Part shown: positions 818-16,695 of the stretch, in pieces | How the letters are laid out: each line of letters begins with the position of its first letter | How positions within the stretch are numbered: the stretch's first letter is position 1 | Origin: Bacteroidales bacterium | GTDB lineage: Bacteria; Bacteroidota; Bacteroidia; Bacteroidales; UBA932 | Direction of reading: 5' to 3' | Assembly (NCBI GenBank): GCA_009784635.1 | Contig: WRBG01000002.1 | Span: 1-35,238, forward strand | Length of the DNA: 35,238 bases | Notes under the pieces: generated by a model | Seen by the model: only the letters and a program-made list of their open reading frames with translations | What the model was told of the DNA's origin: nothing | Database searches by the model: none | Program-made: the position numbers and the translations under genes

Positions 818-3244
818 TTAGAATTTAAATTGGAAACTCAGAGACGGGATTATCGGAAACAGGCTGTATTGCATGAATCTAAATTCGCCCCATCTATCTT
901 TTTCTATATTTATATGATACGGATTTTTGCGGTTGTAGGCATTGTATACGCTCCATACCCAGCGACTTTCGCCCCACTTCCTTTGCTTGATAAAGGAGAG
1001 GCTTGCATCTAAACGATGGTATGGTTCCATGCGGTATCCATTGCGTTCGCCGTACTCAATATATTGATATGTGAGTCCCGAAGCAGCCCCTGTAAGAATC
1101 GGATGATTCACATCAAATACGCCTACGGGCAGCGTGATGCAGTTGCCCGAACTGTATACCCAAGTAATGGAAACATCAATGTCGCGCTTCTCTCTTTTGA
1201 TACGCTGCATCAAAACGATGCTGAAGTCGTGGCGGCGGTCGTATTTGTAGGGGAAACGCTTGCCGTCGTTCAATTCGTCAAAGTGACGGTCTGACCACGA
1301 CAGCGTGTAGCCTGCCCATCCCGTAAAACTGCCGCTCTTTTTCTCGGCAAACAACTCCATGCCGTAGCTGCGGCCGGTGCCTTGCAGGAGCTTTTGCTCC
1401 CAATCCTCGTCAATGTTTAAGAAGCTGGAGCCTTCTCTGTAATCCAGCACATTCGTTAATGTTTTGTAATATCCTTCGAGGCTTATTTCGTAATCTTCCC
1501 TATGGTTGTGAACAAATCCCAGGGCTATCTGGTCCGCTTTCTGCGGACGCAACAGCTCGGTGGCAGGAACCCACAGGTCTCTGGGAAAACCTCCGGCGTT
1601 GTTGGTCAGTAAGTGTACGTATTGTGCCATGCGCGAATAGGAAGCTTTGGCGGAAAGTTGCGGGCTAATCAAGTATCGGGTAGAGATACGCGGTTGCCAT
1701 ACGTTGTAGAAACTGTCGCCCATGCCGTATGCCGACCAGTGTAGCCCGACGTTGGTTTTCAGACGCTCGGTCAGCCGGATATCATCCTCTACATAAACGC
1801 TGTATTCCCATGCGTAGCGTTTGGAGGCGCCAAAATCGCGGCTTCCTGTCGTATCGCGGAGGGAAACCCTGCCCGGATTAAACGTGTGGTAAATGGCGCC
1901 GGCGCCAAAACGAACATAATGGTTAGGAGACGGAATATAATCGAACGCAATCCTCCCGCTCCGGTCCTGTATGCCATAGTTGTTGCGCAACTCGGAAAAG
2001 TTATGAACGGGAACTGTTTGGCCGCTGACGGAATGTGTTTGTTCACGGTCGTTTTTTCTACTGAAATTGTCGCGAAATCGGCTATAAGCCAGCGCAGTAT
2101 TGACGAACAACCGGTTGGTAATCACATAATTCCATCGTAAGGTTGTCATGAAGTTGCCCCATTGCATACTAAAATCCATCTTGTCGGTACCCGAAATGAT
2201 ATTGTCGTGTTCGTATTTGTATTTGCCGATTCCATACATCTTGTCGTCTCCCATGTAGGCGCTGAGGTAGATTCGGCTTTTATCCGAAAATTTGTGGTTG
2301 ATTTTTGCGGTCAAGTCGTAGAAATAGAAGCCGGCTTTGGAGATTTCGCCCTGCATATTTATGTGGGCATCGCTTCCCGGGTCTTCTGCCATGCTGCTTA
2401 ACGCACCAAGGGCGGGTCTCATCAACAAGTCCGCGTACGTGCGCCTGCCCGACACAATGAATGATGTGCGGTCTTTTACAATAGGGCCTTCCAAAGTTAG
2501 GTTGCTCCACAGCAGTCCAATGGCGCCCTCGCCGCGAAATTTTTGCATATTGCCCTCTTTCATGCTGATGTCGAGTACAGACGAAACACGTCCTCCGTAC
2601 CTTGCGGGGAAACCGCCCTTGTAGGCTTCCATGCTATTGATGGCGTCTCCATTGAACATCGAAACAAAGCCCAGCAGGTGTGATGTGTTGTATATGGGCA
2701 CTCCATCCAGCAAAACCAGATTTTGGTCCGGACTGCCGCCACGTACATGCAATCCGGTGCTGCCCTCATTGCCCGACTGTATACCGGGCGTCAGTTGCAA
2801 AGCCCTCATCACGTCTGTTACGCCCAAAGCGGCGGGAAGTGATTTTATCTGCGCTATAGGCATGCTTATCAAGCTCATCTGTGAACGCTCCCCTGTACGC
2901 AATGCGGCGGTAACTATAGCTTCCTGCAGGTGATGTCCTTCTGCAAGGTTTAGGTTAATCACCGTGTCGCGGTAAAGCTGGAAATGGAAAACTTGCGTGC
3001 GGTAGCCCATATACGAATATACAAGTTCCACCCTGCCTTCGGGCAGCGTCAAGCTGTAAAAACCAGCCCGGTTGGTAGAAGCAGCTGTCATATTGGTTTT
3101 ATCGTACACCGTGGCGCCAATCAGACTTTCGCTGCTCAAACTATCTGTCACGTAGCCGCTGATGGTATGCCGCGGCGCCCTTTGCGCAAAAGCGCCGAAC
3201 ACCAAAACAGACAATAATACAACAGCGCATAGATATTTCATCAT
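818..3244 (-). CDS. TonB-dependent outer-membrane receptor with N-terminal carboxypeptidase-regulatory-like domain
   Basis: Signal peptide, ISGYVTDSLSSESLIGATVYD..., plug motif LQLTPGIQSGNEGSTGLHVRGGSPDQNLVLLDGVPIYN, C-terminal aromatic SLSFQFKF. Confidence 0.93.
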   Translation of the reverse strand: MMKYLCAVVLLSVLVFGAFAQRAPRHTISGYVTDSLSSESLIGATVYDKTNMTAASTNRAGFYSLTLPEGRVELVYSYMGYRTQVFHFQLYRDTVINLNLAEGHHLQEAIVTAALRTGERSQMSLISMPIAQIKSLPAALGVTDVMRALQLTPGIQSGNEGSTGLHVRGGSPDQNLVLLDGVPIYNTSHLLGFVSMFNGDAINSMEAYKGGFPARYGGRVSSVLDISMKEGNMQKFRGEGAIGLLWSNLTLEGPIVKDRTSFIVSGRRTYADLLMRPALGALSSMAEDPGSDAHINMQGEISKAGFYFYDLTAKINHKFSDKSRIYLSAYMGDDKMYGIGKYKYEHDNIISGTDKMDFSMQWGNFMTTLRWNYVITNRLFVNTALAYSRFRDNFSRKNDREQTHSVSGQTVPVHNFSELRNNYGIQDRSGRIAFDYIPSPNHYVRFGAGAIYHTFNPGRVSLRDTTGSRDFGASKRYAWEYSVYVEDDIRLTERLKTNVGLHWSAYGMGDSFYNVWQPRISTRYLISPQLSAKASYSRMAQYVHLLTNNAGGFPRDLWVPATELLRPQKADQIALGFVHNHREDYEISLEGYYKTLTNVLDYREGSSFLNIDEDWEQKLLQGTGRSYGMELFAEKKSGSFTGWAGYTLSWSDRHFDELNDGKRFPYKYDRRHDFSIVLMQRIKREKRDIDVSITWVYSSGNCITLPVGVFDVNHPILTGAASGLTYQYIEYGERNGYRMEPYHRLDASLSFIKQRKWGESRWVWSVYNAYNRKNPYHINIEKDRWGEFRFMQYSLFPIIPSLSFQFKF

Positions 3245-3283
3245 ACTTCAATTAATATTTGTTTCTTATTCTTAAAAGCAATA

Positions 3284-3319
3284 AGAGGGCACAAAATTAG
3301 GCATAACTCCACGCCCTCT
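3284..3319 (-). terminator. Hairpin between RiPP precursor and TonB receptor gene
   Basis: AGAGGGC (3284-3290) pairs with GCCCTCT (3313-3319); minus-strand continuation TTATTGCTTTT is T-rich. Confidence 0.5.
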
Positions 3320-3375
3320 CATAATTACATTGGATTGAATACCTAAAGCAAAGTCAATCATCTTGCAGTACATAT

Positions 3376-3627
3376 TTAATGACACGTTCCATCAGCATCA
3401 TTTTCGCAGTCAGCATACGTTTGAGGTTCGGCATCACTAAGCGCACCACTGGTGGTGCCACCGCCCCCAGTGGGACAGGAGTTGCTTGGACAGCCATTAT
3501 TGCACCATGAAAAGCCCATACAACCCCAAACACTCGTAATTATCGTCCCGCCCTTTACTTGACTCAGATGGTTATCGTCTAGACTTGAAATCTGTTCCCT
3601 CTTTAAAACTAATTTATTCCTATTCAT
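3376..3627 (-). CDS. Bacteroidetes GG-leader RiPP precursor (lanthipeptide-like), 83 aa, six Cys in predicted core
   Basis: Leader MNRNKLVLKREQISSLDDNHLSQVKGG followed by 56-aa core TIITSVWGCMGFSWCNNGCPSNSCPTGGGG...DCENDADGTCH; adjacent LanC gene. Confidence 0.8.
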   Translation of the reverse strand: MNRNKLVLKREQISSLDDNHLSQVKGGTIITSVWGCMGFSWCNNGCPSNSCPTGGGGTTSGALSDAEPQTYADCENDADGTCH

Positions 3628-3770
3628 TTTATTTATTTTTTCTTGTTTATACTGTGATTATTATAGATATGACGACCACAGACATCGTAATCTCTGCCTT
3701 TTATGCCAAGACACATAAGACAGAGGCTGCATGAATATTTGAAGGTGAATAAGTGCCATAATAGTACCGT

Positions 3771-4976
3771 TTAGATTAAAAACACGGATTCGTCCCAATG
3801 AATCAATTTGGGATTTTGAAAACTAAGGAGGGTTGAACCTACACCCGAAATGCCGACAAGCAGGTCAAGCGGATGTTCTTTATTGCCCTCTGTGAACACA
3901 TACCCGACAACTCCCTCCGTTTCATTACCCAGCAAAAGGGTCCTTTTTAACCAGTAATTGGCTGCTTCCTCAAAGTAACTATTTTGGGTTTCATAATATA
4001 ATCTATTAAATATGTGCGTAATACCTGATGCTCCATGACAAAATCCTGCATCTTTTACGCGAGTTTCTGTATCGTTTCTCCTTTGAGCAACCTGTTCCAG
4101 CATGCGTATTGCATCAATCTGCACCGGAAAAACCGACGACACGTGAAAAAGAATGTATAAAGCAGTCAAGTCTCCGTAGCACCAAGCAAGCCGCGACATG
4201 TTCTGCTTACTGTCAAACTGCGATATTTTATCATATTCTATCGAAAAAGGAAAATATGAAGGAACTCCCGAGCCATTCATGTGGTCAAGCATGAAGGATA
4301 TATTTTCCCGCATCATTTCACTGCACTTTTGAGGTAAAATGTGTTGTAAATAACACTTATACAGAAAAAATAATGTGCCCGGTATTCCATGCGCCAATCC
4401 AAAATCTACTATTTCTTTTTTACTTTGCGGTCTTACCCGTCTCCATGTTAGATAGCCTCCCACATTTTCCCTGTCATGATATAGCCCATTTATTATACTT
4501 TCAACAATACTGAAATTTCCCCTTTTTAGAAAATAAAAGCCAATACCAACCGCGTGATGAAGCTGGTCATATTCTTTTTTTTCTATCATTAACTTCGCGT
4601 ATTGCAAAAGAACCTTGTCAATATCAGACAAGTAATCATCTAAATCTATCTCTATTAAATCATTTTCCTTCAAGTAAATAATCAACCATGCAAATCCGGC
4701 TATGCCGGAACAGTAGGAAACCATAGCTGCTTTTCCTGTATAAATCTTTTCGTTTATTAGACCAATTGTTTGATTCAACTTATCTAAAAACCTTGCATCA
4801 TCCGAGTTTCTATAAAATAAAGACAACAATAACCCCACTCCCGCCAAACCATCCAACAAGCCAACCTTGTCGGTATAATCCAAGTTACAACTCAACAGAT
4901 ATTCGCCTATTTGCTTTTGCTTACGATTAACCTGTGGCAGAAGCTCGTTGTCAATTTTTATAGTCGCTAAACACAC
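3771..4976 (-). CDS. LanC-family lanthionine synthetase C-like cyclase
   Basis: LanC motifs GLAHGIPG, AWCYGD, FCHGASG (Cys, Cys-His zinc ligands). Start in track is GTG; exact start uncertain. Confidence 0.92.
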   Translation of the reverse strand: MCLATIKIDNELLPQVNRKQKQIGEYLLSCNLDYTDKVGLLDGLAGVGLLLSLFYRNSDDARFLDKLNQTIGLINEKIYTGKAAMVSYCSGIAGFAWLIIYLKENDLIEIDLDDYLSDIDKVLLQYAKLMIEKKEYDQLHHAVGIGFYFLKRGNFSIVESIINGLYHDRENVGGYLTWRRVRPQSKKEIVDFGLAHGIPGTLFFLYKCYLQHILPQKCSEMMRENISFMLDHMNGSGVPSYFPFSIEYDKISQFDSKQNMSRLAWCYGDLTALYILFHVSSVFPVQIDAIRMLEQVAQRRNDTETRVKDAGFCHGASGITHIFNRLYYETQNSYFEEAANYWLKRTLLLGNETEGVVGYVFTEGNKEHPLDLLVGISGVGSTLLSFQNPKLIHWDESVFLI

Positions 4977-5136
4977 CTTTATCGCATTTTATTATTTGCG
5001 ACGAAGATAAATAAAACGATTTAATCTGACAACTACACAACCGTGTACATTTTGACTGCCTTGTATTGCGTTCATTTTTAAGGCATACTGAATTATTCCC
5101 GAATTATCTTGTGTTTTTCTCTATATTTCCCGAGTT

Positions 5137-6048
5137 TTACTCCGTCAATTTTCCTGTTCTTATCGCGTATCGTATTGTCCACTCTCCTACGCCTTCCCGT
5201 ATTGCAATAGAATTGACGCTACAACCTTTGTTCAACTCGTCCTGTACACGCAAGAGCTTTTCCGGCGTCATCGGTCGCCGCTGCTTCTTGGGTTCCGTAT
5301 TTTTTTTCTGTTTGGGATGATTGGGATAATCAAATATCAACCGATGATTAAATGCATAAATAACGGACTCAGTTATAGAATTGGTTTTCAGTTTTTTGAA
5401 AATAGCCCTCTTTCTACTCTGGTAAGCATGATACGAAATGCACAACTTGTTGGCTGCCTCCATGCCTATTTTCCCACGATGGACCAATCTCAGCACCCCC
5501 TTTTCTTGCTCGCTAAGCATCGGTATCCTCCTTTTTATCCATTCTTTACTTTCCAACACAAATTCTTCATAATCTACACCATCAGTATAATGGGCGCACA
5601 GACACCCGGATTTATTTAATACCGAGCTTGACAGCAAGCACAAGCCAAACTGTAGCCGTTTATTGACAAATACAGGTCTTAATTTGTGGTAAATCATCAT
5701 GTGCCTTGATTGATGCTTCATGCGGACGGTAAATGAAAAATAATCAAGAGCGCCCAAGTCATTCATATCAGACATGCGCTGCCGGATAACATCCAGCGCC
5801 TCCATCAACAACAGCAGGTCGTCTGGATGAATCACTTTCGAGAAAAAATTGTATCCCAACGACAAGACTTGTTCTACGGTGTGGCCGCAAAGAAAGAGCG
5901 GGTTGTTAGCCACAAAGTAGAAGCCTCGTTTGGAAAAGTCAATCACATACATTGCCTCCATACTGATGGCTGCAAAGTCGTTCATACCGAATGGTATCTG
6001 GTCGTTGAGCGGTGCAACAAAATCTATTTGAGAATCATCTATATTCAC
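5137..6048 (-). CDS. PAS-like sensor / LuxR-type HTH regulator with additional C-terminal HTH
   Basis: N-terminal PAS-like region (FFSKVIHPDD), central LSEQEKGVLRLVHRGKIGMEAANKLCISYHAYQSRKRAIFKKL, C-terminal MTPEKLLRVQDELNKGCSVNSIAIREGVGEWTIRYAI. Confidence 0.7.
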   Translation of the reverse strand: MNIDDSQIDFVAPLNDQIPFGMNDFAAISMEAMYVIDFSKRGFYFVANNPLFLCGHTVEQVLSLGYNFFSKVIHPDDLLLLMEALDVIRQRMSDMNDLGALDYFSFTVRMKHQSRHMMIYHKLRPVFVNKRLQFGLCLLSSSVLNKSGCLCAHYTDGVDYEEFVLESKEWIKRRIPMLSEQEKGVLRLVHRGKIGMEAANKLCISYHAYQSRKRAIFKKLKTNSITESVIYAFNHRLIFDYPNHPKQKKNTEPKKQRRPMTPEKLLRVQDELNKGCSVNSIAIREGVGEWTIRYAIRTGKLTE

Positions 6049-6110
6049 GATTGTAGCGTAAAGTCGTTACCGCAAAAATACAAAAATGCCCGAATTGAAA
6101 GGATTTTATG

Positions 6111-6118
6111 TATATTTG
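6111..6118 (+). promoter_or_regulatory. Bacteroidetes -7 element (TATATTTG) 4 nt before the likely ATG of the response regulator
   Basis: TATATTTG-TAGG-ATG(6123); matches TAnnTTTG. Confidence 0.6.
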
Positions 6119-6122
6119 TAGG

Positions 6123-7439
6123 ATGAAAACGAAGGTTCTGATTGTAGAAGATGACGCTGCTTTTGGAGCCATGCTTAGGGCGTGGTTTGAGCGCAATGGG
6201 TATCAGACGGCGCTTTGTACAACGATTGCGGCTGCCAAACAGGAACTTACAAAAAATCGCTACCACCTCCTTTTGAGCGACCTGCGGCTGCCCGACAGCG
6301 ATGGCATTATGCTTTTGCAATGGGTAAGGGAGCAACATATGGCCACGCCCGTAATCATCATGACCGGATATGCGGAGGTTCAAAGCGCTGTGGCGGCCAT
6401 TAAGTTGGGCGCAGAAGATTATCTGGAAAAACCCATTGTGCCGGATGTACTCAAAGAAAAGATAGAGAACGCTTTGGCAAAACATAAAGGGATGGTTACG
6501 CCGCATGTTATGCAGGAGAAAAAAGAAGCGTCCCAAATTGTGCTTGGACACAGCGCTATAGCCAGACAGGTGTACGACCATATTACACGGGTGGCTCCCA
6601 CCAAAATGTCGGTGTTAATCCTTGGCGAGAGCGGTACGGGCAAGGAATATGCGGCCAAGATGATTCATAACCACAGCCCAAGGAAAAATAAACCTTTTAT
6701 TGCGGTTGACTGCGGCAGTCTTTCCAAGGAACTTGCCCCCAGCGAACTGTTTGGACACATCAAGGGGTCTTTCACATCGGCCATTGACAACAAAACGGGC
6801 GTCTTTGAGCTGGCAAACGGCGGAACGGTGTTGTTAGACGAGGTGGGCAACCTGCTCTACGAAGTACAGGCGCAATTACTCAGAACTTTGCAGGAGCAGA
6901 AAGTACGCCCTGTGGGTTCTGCAAAAGATATCCCCATAGATGTACGCATTGTGGCCGCCACCAACGAAGATTTGGAGTCAGCCATTGCCGAGGGACGTTT
7001 TCGCGAAGATTTATATCACCGCCTCCATGAATTTTCGCTCTTTATTCCGCCATTGCGCAACAGGGAAAACGACATCAGCCTGTTTGCCCATGAGTTTTTG
7101 AGAGAGGCCAATGATGAGTTGGCGCGCAATATACAAGGGTTTAGCCATCAAACTATTACCCTGCTTGAAAAGCACCACTGGAGCGGCAACCTTCGCGAGC
7201 TGCGTAATGTGGTCAGGCGCGCTGTACTCTTTGCCAAGGGAGACCATATTGTTCTTGACGATTTGCCTCTTTTAAGCGAACCTAAATCTCAAGACTTTAC
7301 CCTTTACCCCGGCAACGAAAAGGGGCAGATAGAAGCAGCGCTGCACAAAGCAAGGGGCAACAAAACCTTGGCGGCGCAACTCCTTAAAATTGACCGAAAA
7401 ACACTTTACAATAAGATGCACGTCTACGGCATCAAATGA
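6123..7439 (+). CDS. Sigma-54-dependent response regulator (REC-AAA+-Fis, NtrC/AtoC type)
   Basis: MKTKVLIVEDDAAFGAML, GESGTGKE Walker A, GSFTSA (GAFTGA variant), Fis-like C-terminus GNKTLAAQLLKIDRKTLYNKM; start set to MKTK at 6123 rather than 6108. Confidence 0.95.
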   Translation: MKTKVLIVEDDAAFGAMLRAWFERNGYQTALCTTIAAAKQELTKNRYHLLLSDLRLPDSDGIMLLQWVREQHMATPVIIMTGYAEVQSAVAAIKLGAEDYLEKPIVPDVLKEKIENALAKHKGMVTPHVMQEKKEASQIVLGHSAIARQVYDHITRVAPTKMSVLILGESGTGKEYAAKMIHNHSPRKNKPFIAVDCGSLSKELAPSELFGHIKGSFTSAIDNKTGVFELANGGTVLLDEVGNLLYEVQAQLLRTLQEQKVRPVGSAKDIPIDVRIVAATNEDLESAIAEGRFREDLYHRLHEFSLFIPPLRNRENDISLFAHEFLREANDELARNIQGFSHQTITLLEKHHWSGNLRELRNVVRRAVLFAKGDHIVLDDLPLLSEPKSQDFTLYPGNEKGQIEAALHKARGNKTLAAQLLKIDRKTLYNKMHVYGIK

Positions 7440-9636
7440 CGATGGAAAGTATCTTTTCCACATCCTCCCGCCATCCCTCATATTCGCTGTTCCGGTGGGC
7501 GTCCATTTTGCGCAACTCCTCTGTGGGATAGCCTAATTGGGCAAACATCGGAAATATTTTGTGGCAAACGGCTTGAGCTTGCGCAAAGTTGTTGTGGGCA
7601 ACCGCTTCCTTGAGTATAGAGAAGTTTTCTGTGGTGGAAACGCGAAAAAGCGACATGATTTCGTCCCGACTATCTCCCAAAAGTTCATCGCAAGGGCCGC
7701 CCTCGCCTGCCACTTCGCGTAAAGATTCTATGGTAAACGGTTTTGCCAAAAAGTGGGAAAACCCAAGCTCCGCCGCTTTTTGCGCAGAAAAGTCGGCGCG
7801 TCCCGTCATGACCGCCACGGGAACGGCCCCCGCCACTTGACGCAGTACATCCAATCCCGAAATATCGCCCATCTCCATGTCGGTAATAACAAAATTGTAG
7901 TCGTTTTCCACCACCTTGTGTCCCAACCTTAAAAGCATGTCGGATACTATTTTTACCACTACCGGATTGTCGTCATAAATCTTGATCCTTTTGGCTCCTT
8001 GAGGTACCTCGACCTGCGCATATTCGGCCGGAATAGCCACCGTAACAACAGTCCCCTCCCCCACTTGGGAACTGAGGGCGATGCTCCCCCCTAATAATTC
8101 TGTAATTCCATGAACTACAAACATTCCCAAGCCTGTTCCCTCTGCCGCCGAACTATTTTCCTCAATCCGGCTAAAGGGTTTAAAAAGTTGAGACTGCTTT
8201 TGGGGAGGAATGCCCATCCCCGTGTCTTCTACCTTGATATGGAGCCGGTTTTTGTCGAATGTGGCGTTGAATGTAACGGAGCCTGCTTGGGTATATTTAA
8301 TGGCGTTGGATACAAGGTTGATTACCATCTGCTTGAGCTTTACCCTGTCGGTGCGGATTCTTACATCGTCCGCCACAAACGAGAAGGCAAGCGATTTTTG
8401 ACTCGCCAATGGGAGGAACATATTGTGGATATCTTCAAATAAGTTCTTGATATTGAAGTCAGAATCACTTTTTAAAAGGGTGCCTCGTTCCAAGCTCGAA
8501 AACCCCAAAAGGTTCTCAAGCATCGCAAGGATATGTTCTGACGAATTTTGCATGGAGCGCACATTGGGGTCGCTCTCCATGAGCGCCAGATAGCCCATCA
8601 TGGATTGGAGCGGGGTTTTTACATCGTGCGATACGGCAAGGAGCAGCCGGTGGCGACTCTCCATAATCCGGCGGGTACACTCATGGGCGGCTTCTAAGGC
8701 AAGACGGGCTTCGCGTCCCTTATTTATATCTGTGATTATCAGAATAATAAAAACAAGAATGATGGCCAAGCCAAAAACGCCCCCAATGCTGGAATAGACA
8801 TAGTTGCGCCATATGGCCTCCTCGCCGGTATCAATCATCGTTAAGATGGAATGGAGCGTCTCTTTGTGAAACTCAAGAAGCAACGCAAAGATTTCCATAT
8901 TTATATCTCTGTTTGAGGAGATTAACTCTGCCACCCGCCTTTCTATCGTTCTCAAATTTTCTTCATAAATTCTTTGCGCTTGCTGTGCAAGACGTTCTTC
9001 TTGATACACCACGGTAAGGTTGTCTTGAACCGTTTTGACGGTATCGGCCCGCTGATTCACCACAATGGTAACTGCGTCTCTACTTGGATTGAACACCTCG
9101 CCCAAACGTCTGAGAAGTCCCTTTCTGGGCAATTCGCTCACTACCGTATCTTGGACGGCGCTAGAGGCATGTTGGATATTCTCGCTCGAATGTGGCGCAA
9201 TTTCCGGCTTCCGTTCAGCCGTTAATCCAATTCGTCCGCCATCGGTAAATTGCCGGTTTAACTCCGTAACATTCTGCATCTGTTCGTGGAGCAAAAATGC
9301 AATCCGCTGCAATTTCTCCTCCTCCGCGGGTTTGAACGCCGCAATGGTATCTATCAATTTCTCGATGGAGCCAACAGATAGGGTATAATCGTTCAGATAA
9401 TTTCCATTTCTTGTAGATATAAAGAGGCTTACCGACGATTGCGCATCGTTGACCGCAACCATCAAATCATTGACAGCCAATAAAAGCACCTGCTGGCTTT
9501 CTATCTCGAGGCGTTGAAAGGAAATATTTTTGCGAAGGGCGTTGAGATACAAGGTCATGGCAACCACCGCCAAAGCAACTATCAAATAGATAATCGCCGC
9601 TTTAAATCTAATTTTAAATTCAATACTCTTTCCCAT
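7432..9636 (-). CDS. Hybrid sensor histidine kinase / response regulator with C-terminal Hpt-like domain
   Basis: HisKA LLAVSHDVKTPLQSMMGYL, HATPase N/G boxes (NLVSNAIKYT, DTGMGIP, GTGLGM), REC with YDDN, ITDMEM, MTG, AKPF, then Hpt-like VCHKIFPMFAQLG. Confidence 0.93.
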   Translation of the reverse strand: MGKSIEFKIRFKAAIIYLIVALAVVAMTLYLNALRKNISFQRLEIESQQVLLLAVNDLMVAVNDAQSSVSLFISTRNGNYLNDYTLSVGSIEKLIDTIAAFKPAEEEKLQRIAFLLHEQMQNVTELNRQFTDGGRIGLTAERKPEIAPHSSENIQHASSAVQDTVVSELPRKGLLRRLGEVFNPSRDAVTIVVNQRADTVKTVQDNLTVVYQEERLAQQAQRIYEENLRTIERRVAELISSNRDINMEIFALLLEFHKETLHSILTMIDTGEEAIWRNYVYSSIGGVFGLAIILVFIILIITDINKGREARLALEAAHECTRRIMESRHRLLLAVSHDVKTPLQSMMGYLALMESDPNVRSMQNSSEHILAMLENLLGFSSLERGTLLKSDSDFNIKNLFEDIHNMFLPLASQKSLAFSFVADDVRIRTDRVKLKQMVINLVSNAIKYTQAGSVTFNATFDKNRLHIKVEDTGMGIPPQKQSQLFKPFSRIEENSSAAEGTGLGMFVVHGITELLGGSIALSSQVGEGTVVTVAIPAEYAQVEVPQGAKRIKIYDDNPVVVKIVSDMLLRLGHKVVENDYNFVITDMEMGDISGLDVLRQVAGAVPVAVMTGRADFSAQKAAELGFSHFLAKPFTIESLREVAGEGGPCDELLGDSRDEIMSLFRVSTTENFSILKEAVAHNNFAQAQAVCHKIFPMFAQLGYPTEELRKMDAHRNSEYEGWREDVEKILSIVI

Positions 9637-9640
9637 GCTA

Positions 9641-9648
9641 CAAATATA
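9641..9648 (-). promoter_or_regulatory. Bacteroidetes -7 element (TATATTTG) for the hybrid histidine kinase
   Basis: Minus strand TATATTTG-TAGC-ATG(9636), same spacing as the partner response regulator. Confidence 0.6.
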
Positions 9649-9769
9649 GCAATAAATTATTTAAAGCGGGGAAATTTACGCAATATTCCACACATTTCTA
9701 CACTTGTCAAAACAAACGGAAATTACATAATTATTTAATATACAGCATATTTTTATGAAATCGAAAAAG

Positions 9770-9784
9770 TGGCACAGTCGTTGC
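9770..9784 (+). promoter_or_regulatory. Sigma-54 (-24/-12) promoter
   Basis: TGGCAC-AGTCG-TTGC: GG-N10-GC; close to TGGCACGN4TTGCW; intergenic, next to an NtrC-type activator/HK pair. Confidence 0.78.
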
Positions 9785-9795
9785 GTATTTACTTG

Positions 9796-9894
9796 AAAGA
9801 GTAATAAACCTAAATTTGAAAAAATAAACCTAAGTCGTTTTGTTGGATTTAAGCGCAGGGGTCGTTCGCAAAAAAGGGCGACCCCTTATTTATT
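9796..9894 (+). ncRNA. Candidate sigma-54-dependent small RNA (~100 nt)
   Basis: Begins 12 nt after the -12 element and ends in GGGGTCG(9858-9864)/CGACCCC(9879-9885) hairpin + TTATTTATT; no convincing ORF; contains two AATAAACCTAA copies. Confidence 0.5.
9858..9894 (+). terminator. Intrinsic-terminator-like hairpin
   Basis: 7-bp G/C-rich stem GGGGTCG/CGACCCC followed by TTATTTATT. Confidence 0.6.
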
Positions 9895-9915
9895 GACGGA
9901 TTTCATGTATATTTG
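9893..9915 (+). promoter_or_regulatory. Bacteroidetes housekeeping promoter for rsfS-ftsH-cdsA-psd
   Basis: TTG (9893-9895) and TATATTTG (9908-9915), directly after the hairpin. Confidence 0.5.

Positions 9916-16640: not shown

Positions 16641-16695
<55 letters not shown>

Follow-up and report, generated by a model that had tools for sequence, protein, structure and literature searches.

A candidate sigma-54-dependent small RNA adjoining a hybrid kinase gene in a Bacteroidales bacterium

Transcription of the Vibrio Qrr RNAs is sigma-54-dependent, and GlmY and GlmZ act through RapZ. The Qrr sRNAs are under the two-component system LuxPQ-LuxO, with its NtrC-type regulator, and GlmY/GlmZ are under the two-component system GlrK/GlrR, with a sigma-54 promoter (PMC7602753). 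In Pseudomonas, CrcZ is an RpoN-dependent RNA encoded beside the gene of an NtrC-type activator in the two-component system CbrA/CbrB, and in P. aeruginosa NrsZ, which has a pairing target, depends on RpoN and NtrC and adjoins ntrC (PMC8395346). Within Bacteroidota, F. psychrophilum has known sigma-54 promoters (PMC9723704), and the Bacteroides thetaiotaomicron RNAs GibS and FopS are built of a short single-stranded 5' part and an intrinsic terminator (PMC11697453). A limited search of the open-access literature found no sigma-54-dependent sRNA in Bacteroidota.

Here we analyse a window of 35,238 nucleotides (the whole stretch of DNA studied) from the 1.87-Mb, 215-contig genome of a Bacteroidales bacterium, whose gene content and nearest named relatives agree with that order, and in which the first-pass annotation had proposed an RpoN-controlled sRNA upstream of rsfS-ftsH. 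At the sequence level, the promoter, an enhancer-like repeat and a predicted short, terminated, non-coding transcript sustain the proposal of an RpoN-controlled sRNA, while its tie to rsfS-ftsH did not hold. The features of the locus are:

6108-7439, plus strand: NtrC-type response regulator, proposed activator (Pfam PF00072, PF00158, PF02954)
7432-9636, minus strand: hybrid sensor histidine kinase (Pfam HisKA, HATPase, partial receiver)
9641-9648, minus strand: TATATTTG, -7 box of the kinase's own promoter
9686-9702, no strand assigned: TTCCACACATTTCTACA, proposed enhancer (UAS) for the NtrC-type regulator, of a repeat type common to the kinase clade
9770-9784, plus strand: sigma-54 promoter TGGCACAGTCGTTGC, full -24/-12 consensus
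9796-9893, plus strand: candidate small RNA of ~98 nt
9803-9813, plus strand: first copy of AATAAACCTAA, possible pairing seed
9823-9833, plus strand: second copy of AATAAACCTAA, possible pairing seed
9857-9895, plus strand: intrinsic terminator, 11-bp stem (9857-9886) and U-rich tail TATTTATT
9908-9915, plus strand: TATATTTG, -7 box of a separate rsfS promoter

Control region, candidate RNA and proposed module

The GG-N10-GC spacing first read at 9770-9784 is present at exactly these coordinates, where the sigma-54 consensus, for which we used TGGCAYN5TTGC, is matched in full. When the 293-nt intergenic region was shuffled 3000 times with its dinucleotides preserved, a full-score sigma-54 site arose in 3 shuffles and a TTCCACA-type repeat in none. 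Genome-wide, the consensus occurs 17 times, versus 6 for the reversed control.

The repeat at 9686-9702, which like the two AATAAACCTAA copies and an internal -7-type box had gone unnoticed in the first-pass annotation, is the sole exact TTCYACAN3TTCYACA in the genome. We gathered relatives of the kinase through its sensor domain, drawing on genomes of the family and of the order and on a named genome collection. In their divergent intergenic region, TGTGGAA/TTCCACA repeats spaced at a period of 10 bp precede a sigma-54 site, and the distance from UAS to promoter is 84-86 bp in this genome, in two others of its genus (G001 and G002) and in Azobacteroides. Among 56 distinct regions upstream of kinase relatives, a sigma-54 site was found in 13 of the 14 with the repeat versus 6 of the 42 without it (Fisher p = 1.7e-7, computed without correction for relatedness), and several of those 6 belong to the clade but have a repeat that is degenerate or a kinase start that is mis-set. 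Counterpart sites can be imperfect (the promoter ends in GT in G001 and starts with CGG in G002), and the gene across the intergenic region varies among kinase relatives, being carB, 5S rRNA, tryptophanase or a gene for small exported proteins.

The NtrC-type regulator consists of a receiver, an AAA+ domain with a GSFTSA loop and a Fis-type HTH. The hybrid kinase has a weak CHASE3-like sensor and a C-terminus that is possibly Hpt-like; Pfam called no Hpt in it, and a weak Hpt was found in three relatives. Its own -7 box matches TAnnTTTG and lies in the same place in G001 and G002. The genome encodes a single RpoN, along with four sigma-54 activators that score strongly. In relatives, orthologues of the regulator adjoin the kinase, with an identical GSFTSA loop and a closely similar HTH. 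As no second exact copy of the repeat occurs in the genome, the adjacent NtrC-type protein, named as the probable activator in the first-pass annotation, is supported as the putative activator, and it likely activates the sigma-54 promoter.

We placed the start of the RNA at 9796, 12 nt below the promoter GC, and its end at ~9893 from the terminator. As had been claimed, an ORF-free stretch of ~100 nt ends in a terminator: neither ATG nor GTG occurs within 9785-9895, and the stem comprises 11 pairs, its efficiency as a terminator being uncertain because the U-run is interrupted. The segment 9796-9893 folds at -24 kcal/mol (z -2.5), with the terminator contributing most. No Rfam family (Qrr, CrcZ, GlmY, P11 and GibS included) reached its gathering cut-off for this RNA, the best sub-threshold scores being 25.7 versus 70 bits for P11 and 20.5 versus 115 for GibS. 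We rejected an identity with P11, whose match is sub-threshold and best aligned over the sigma-54 promoter itself; the match spans this promoter because the P11 model contains a TTGGCACA...TGC stretch.

We consider it probable that these elements form a dedicated signalling module, leading from the kinase through the NtrC-type regulator, the repeat and RpoN to a ~98-nt base-pairing sRNA. Comparison established the promoter, the enhancer-like repeat, the absence of an ORF, the terminator and the association with the kinase, and we infer phosphotransfer, binding, transcription and RNA function. Judging from domain make-up, the membrane hybrid kinase would sense a signal and phosphorylate the regulator, which would bind the TTCCACA-type repeats that separate the kinase gene from the promoter and, once bound, trigger a start by RpoN-RNA polymerase at ~9796. 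The product would be a ~98-nt non-coding RNA terminating at 9857-9895 that most likely base-pairs with targets, perhaps via the two AATAAACCTAA repeats. In the ancestor of the genus, this RNA would have taken the place of a small exported protein under the same enhancer and promoter.

The complement of the seed, TTAGGTTTAT, is not enriched in the genome (4 other sites versus 21 for the reversed control); one of these sites, in L188, is intergenic and precedes a terminator. In a duplex scan of 17 window genes, for some of which the start codons were approximate, the DUF1573, NVEALA and lanthipeptide genes ranked best (0.01-0.02 versus mononucleotide shuffles); given the few genes and the mononucleotide shuffles, we did not find these pairings convincing.

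Several other loci were seen in the window and the genome. A second perfect sigma-54 site in the window, TGGCACGATATTTGC (16681-16695, minus strand), is directly followed by ~19 AG repeats (whole span 16643-16695), and the genes downstream of it encode a DUF1573 protein, an NVEALA peptide and a TolB-like propeller; an AG repeat in the start region could confer phase-variable expression. The cluster at 818-6048 looks like a RiPP locus, with a TonB-dependent receptor (818-3244), a class I lanthipeptide-type precursor (3376-3627), a LANC-like protein (3771-4976) and a LuxR-type regulator (5137-6048). On contig C7, TGGCACGCTTTTTGC (L103 258-272) precedes rpsP, standing in the intergenic gap ~200 nt ahead of the start codon, and is a possible origin of a second sigma-54 transcript; L103 also contains TTAGGTTTTAGGTTAAG, which is partly complementary to the repeats of the candidate RNA. 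On contig C19 (L018), TGGCATTGCTTTTGC stands just upstream of groES, with the start codon 64 nt after the first base of the site; in B. thetaiotaomicron, groES is stated to depend on sigma-54 (PMC12316311). An intergenic stretch on contig C215 (L188 1501-1580), flanked by two opposite-strand genes, carries CTTAGGTTTATTT, which matches the complement of the candidate RNA over 13 nt, together with a strong terminator, and is possibly a further small RNA.

Protein and RNA outputs of the promoter

In most relatives, the promoter is followed by a gene for a small protein of 73-308 aa with a signal-peptide-like start (Azobacteroides, Dysgonomonas and others). This protein belongs to no Pfam family, and its AlphaFold model, of moderate confidence (pLDDT 72), gave weak matches to periplasmic DUF2874/PepSY-like structures, none of them below E 0.001. 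One genome (G381; L134 3-320 and 662-886) has two tandem small exported lysine/glutamate-rich proteins below a sigma-54 promoter, which suggests a duplication of the promoter's output gene.

Such an ORF is absent from this genome, from G001 and G002, from G084 and G026, two species of genus g24, and from an outlier, G536, all of which carry instead a short stretch ending at a terminator. The exported-protein form was not found at our locus, where the 9785-9895 stretch below the promoter has no ATG or GTG, and a search run without a positive control found no homologue of the small protein in the genome. In the kinase tree, this genome groups with G001 and G002 in a single supported clade that lacks the ORF, and the ORF-bearing Azobacteroides is its sister, while G084 with G026, and G536, are placed elsewhere; as several long branches leave deeper placement unsure, the number of output switches is not fixed. 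The small exported protein is the commoner and probably the ancestral output of the promoter. We suggest, tentatively, that the enhancer and sigma-54 module may have switched its output from exported protein to regulatory RNA more than once, yielding the first Bacteroidota sigma-54 sRNAs, each lineage with its own sequence.

In the two g24 genomes, a conserved candidate sRNA lies in the gap that separates the kinase gene from tryptophanase (L086 4654-4774, minus strand; L087 8660-8785, plus strand; block GTTCTTTAGATAGTGTTAGTTAATTGTTCCTGGTTTA). Their RNAs share a 37-nt identical block, and a compensatory pair change distinguishes their terminators. Because of this identity and the covarying terminator, set between flanks that are far more diverged, the predicted g24 RNA is probably functional. 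A model of it, searched against 399 family genomes, matched convincingly only its two source genomes and did not match ours; a weak hit in G065 (31 bits) was taken as chance.

Comparison of our RNA body with those of G002, G001, G084 and G026 gave p values of 0.014, 0.15, 0.28 and 0.78, respectively, and the bodies of the three same-genus genomes do not align. A DNA search with our region in 60 relatives returned this genome as the sole real match, with fragments of 22-29 nt elsewhere. Covariation in related genomes, put forward earlier as a check on the RNA, was seen in the g24 terminator; the sequence of our RNA is conserved in none of the genomes compared. Dedicated terminators occur only in this genome and in g24. 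A convergent gene lies opposite the terminator in G001 (5S rRNA), G002 (carB) and G536 (an ORF), and the terminator, being shared with it, may not have evolved for the RNA; we rejected the G001 terminator as a dedicated one, as it is that of the convergent 5S rRNA gene read from the other side.

As the protein is the commoner and probably ancestral output, a relic must be weighed, in which deletion of the small exported protein gene left the promoter and terminator behind and the transcript has no function. The presence of the exported protein at this place in most of the clade and in the sister lineage Azobacteroides, the failure to detect a homologue in our genome and the unconserved sequence of our RNA all fit such a loss. 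For our genus the argument in favour of function is an indirect one. A dead promoter, however, is expected to decay, yet the three species of the ORF-less clade keep the repeat, the promoter, if in imperfect form in G001 and G002, and their spacing while their fourfold-degenerate kinase sites are only 29-39% identical, near saturation; moreover, the g24 RNA is itself strongly conserved. We judge the relic unlikely and prefer the module with a functional RNA.

The rsfS-ftsH neighbour and remaining alternatives

The candidate RNA had been described as lying upstream of rsfS-ftsH, with a separate rsfS promoter at 9893-9915. Of this promoter, the -7 box stands, having equivalents before rsfS in three same-genus genomes. 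The usual -33/-7 spacing is longer than 12 nt, and the proposed -33 half is weak because the TTG at 9893-9895 is just 12 nt from the box. The genes upstream of rsfS differ among same-genus genomes, with birA in that position in G001 and G003, and the genomes examined showed no sigma-54 site upstream of rsfS. The position upstream of rsfS-ftsH did not prove to be a meaningful link, as the downstream neighbours vary by lineage and the kinase stays. We rejected rsfS synteny as the key to the candidate unit, given the gene's own promoter and its other upstream neighbours within the genus; the rsfS context of the candidate RNA is incidental, and the predicted unit goes with the adjoining hybrid kinase gene.

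It is improbable that the sigma-54 site is a stress promoter or leader for rsfS-ftsH, from which transcription passes the hairpin as an attenuator and raises FtsH. Such a role would suit the position of rsfS on the same strand, ~135 nt below the inferred start, and the interrupted U-run of the terminator. In F. psychrophilum, moreover, protein quality-control genes are driven by sigma-54 (PMC9723704), and in B. thetaiotaomicron the groES gene is (PMC12316311). However, the rsfS -7 box is present also in relatives that lack the sigma-54 unit, and the gene below the unit changes between lineages.

We find it very improbable that the short RNA is made from an internal housekeeping-type box, or from both promoters with the sigma-54 site as the minor one: TAAATTTG at 9811-9818 is an exact TAnnTTTG, but a single such box per ~100 AT-rich nt is not rare and a -33 partner is absent at the usual distance. 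A chance consensus match without function seems the least likely reading, for although some TGGCAYN5TTGC matches fall within genes, the repeat and a full site occurred together in 0 of 3000 dinucleotide shuffles of the 293-nt region and counterpart sites lie in the same place across genera.

Comparison with known systems

If the proposed module is real, Bacteroidota too use the circuit that links a kinase, an NtrC-type regulator, sigma-54 and an sRNA. The locus would then be a test case for the birth of sRNA genes, one promoter giving a protein in some genera and an RNA in others, and the g24 RNA offers a short conserved block as a query for target prediction.

The candidate shares with GibS and FopS the order of its host and the layout of a 5' part and an intrinsic terminator; it differs in its sigma-54 promoter, whereas FopS has a housekeeping promoter and GibS another motif (PMC11697453). 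Qrr RNAs exist in several copies; the candidate matches no Rfam family at the gathering score, and GlmY/GlmZ are unrelated to it in sequence. NrsZ, with NtrB/NtrC, is ~226 nt long, is processed, responds to nitrogen and is likewise unrelated in sequence. CrcZ is alike in being an RpoN-dependent RNA that adjoins the gene of its NtrC-type activator, as is predicted for the candidate; it differs in being 407 nt long, in sequestering Hfq and in belonging to another phylum, whereas the candidate is ~98 nt, divergent from the kinase gene and unrelated in sequence. Taken as a non-coding, terminated unit read from DNA, the candidate would be an sRNA of the CrcZ, NrsZ, Qrr and GlmY kind.
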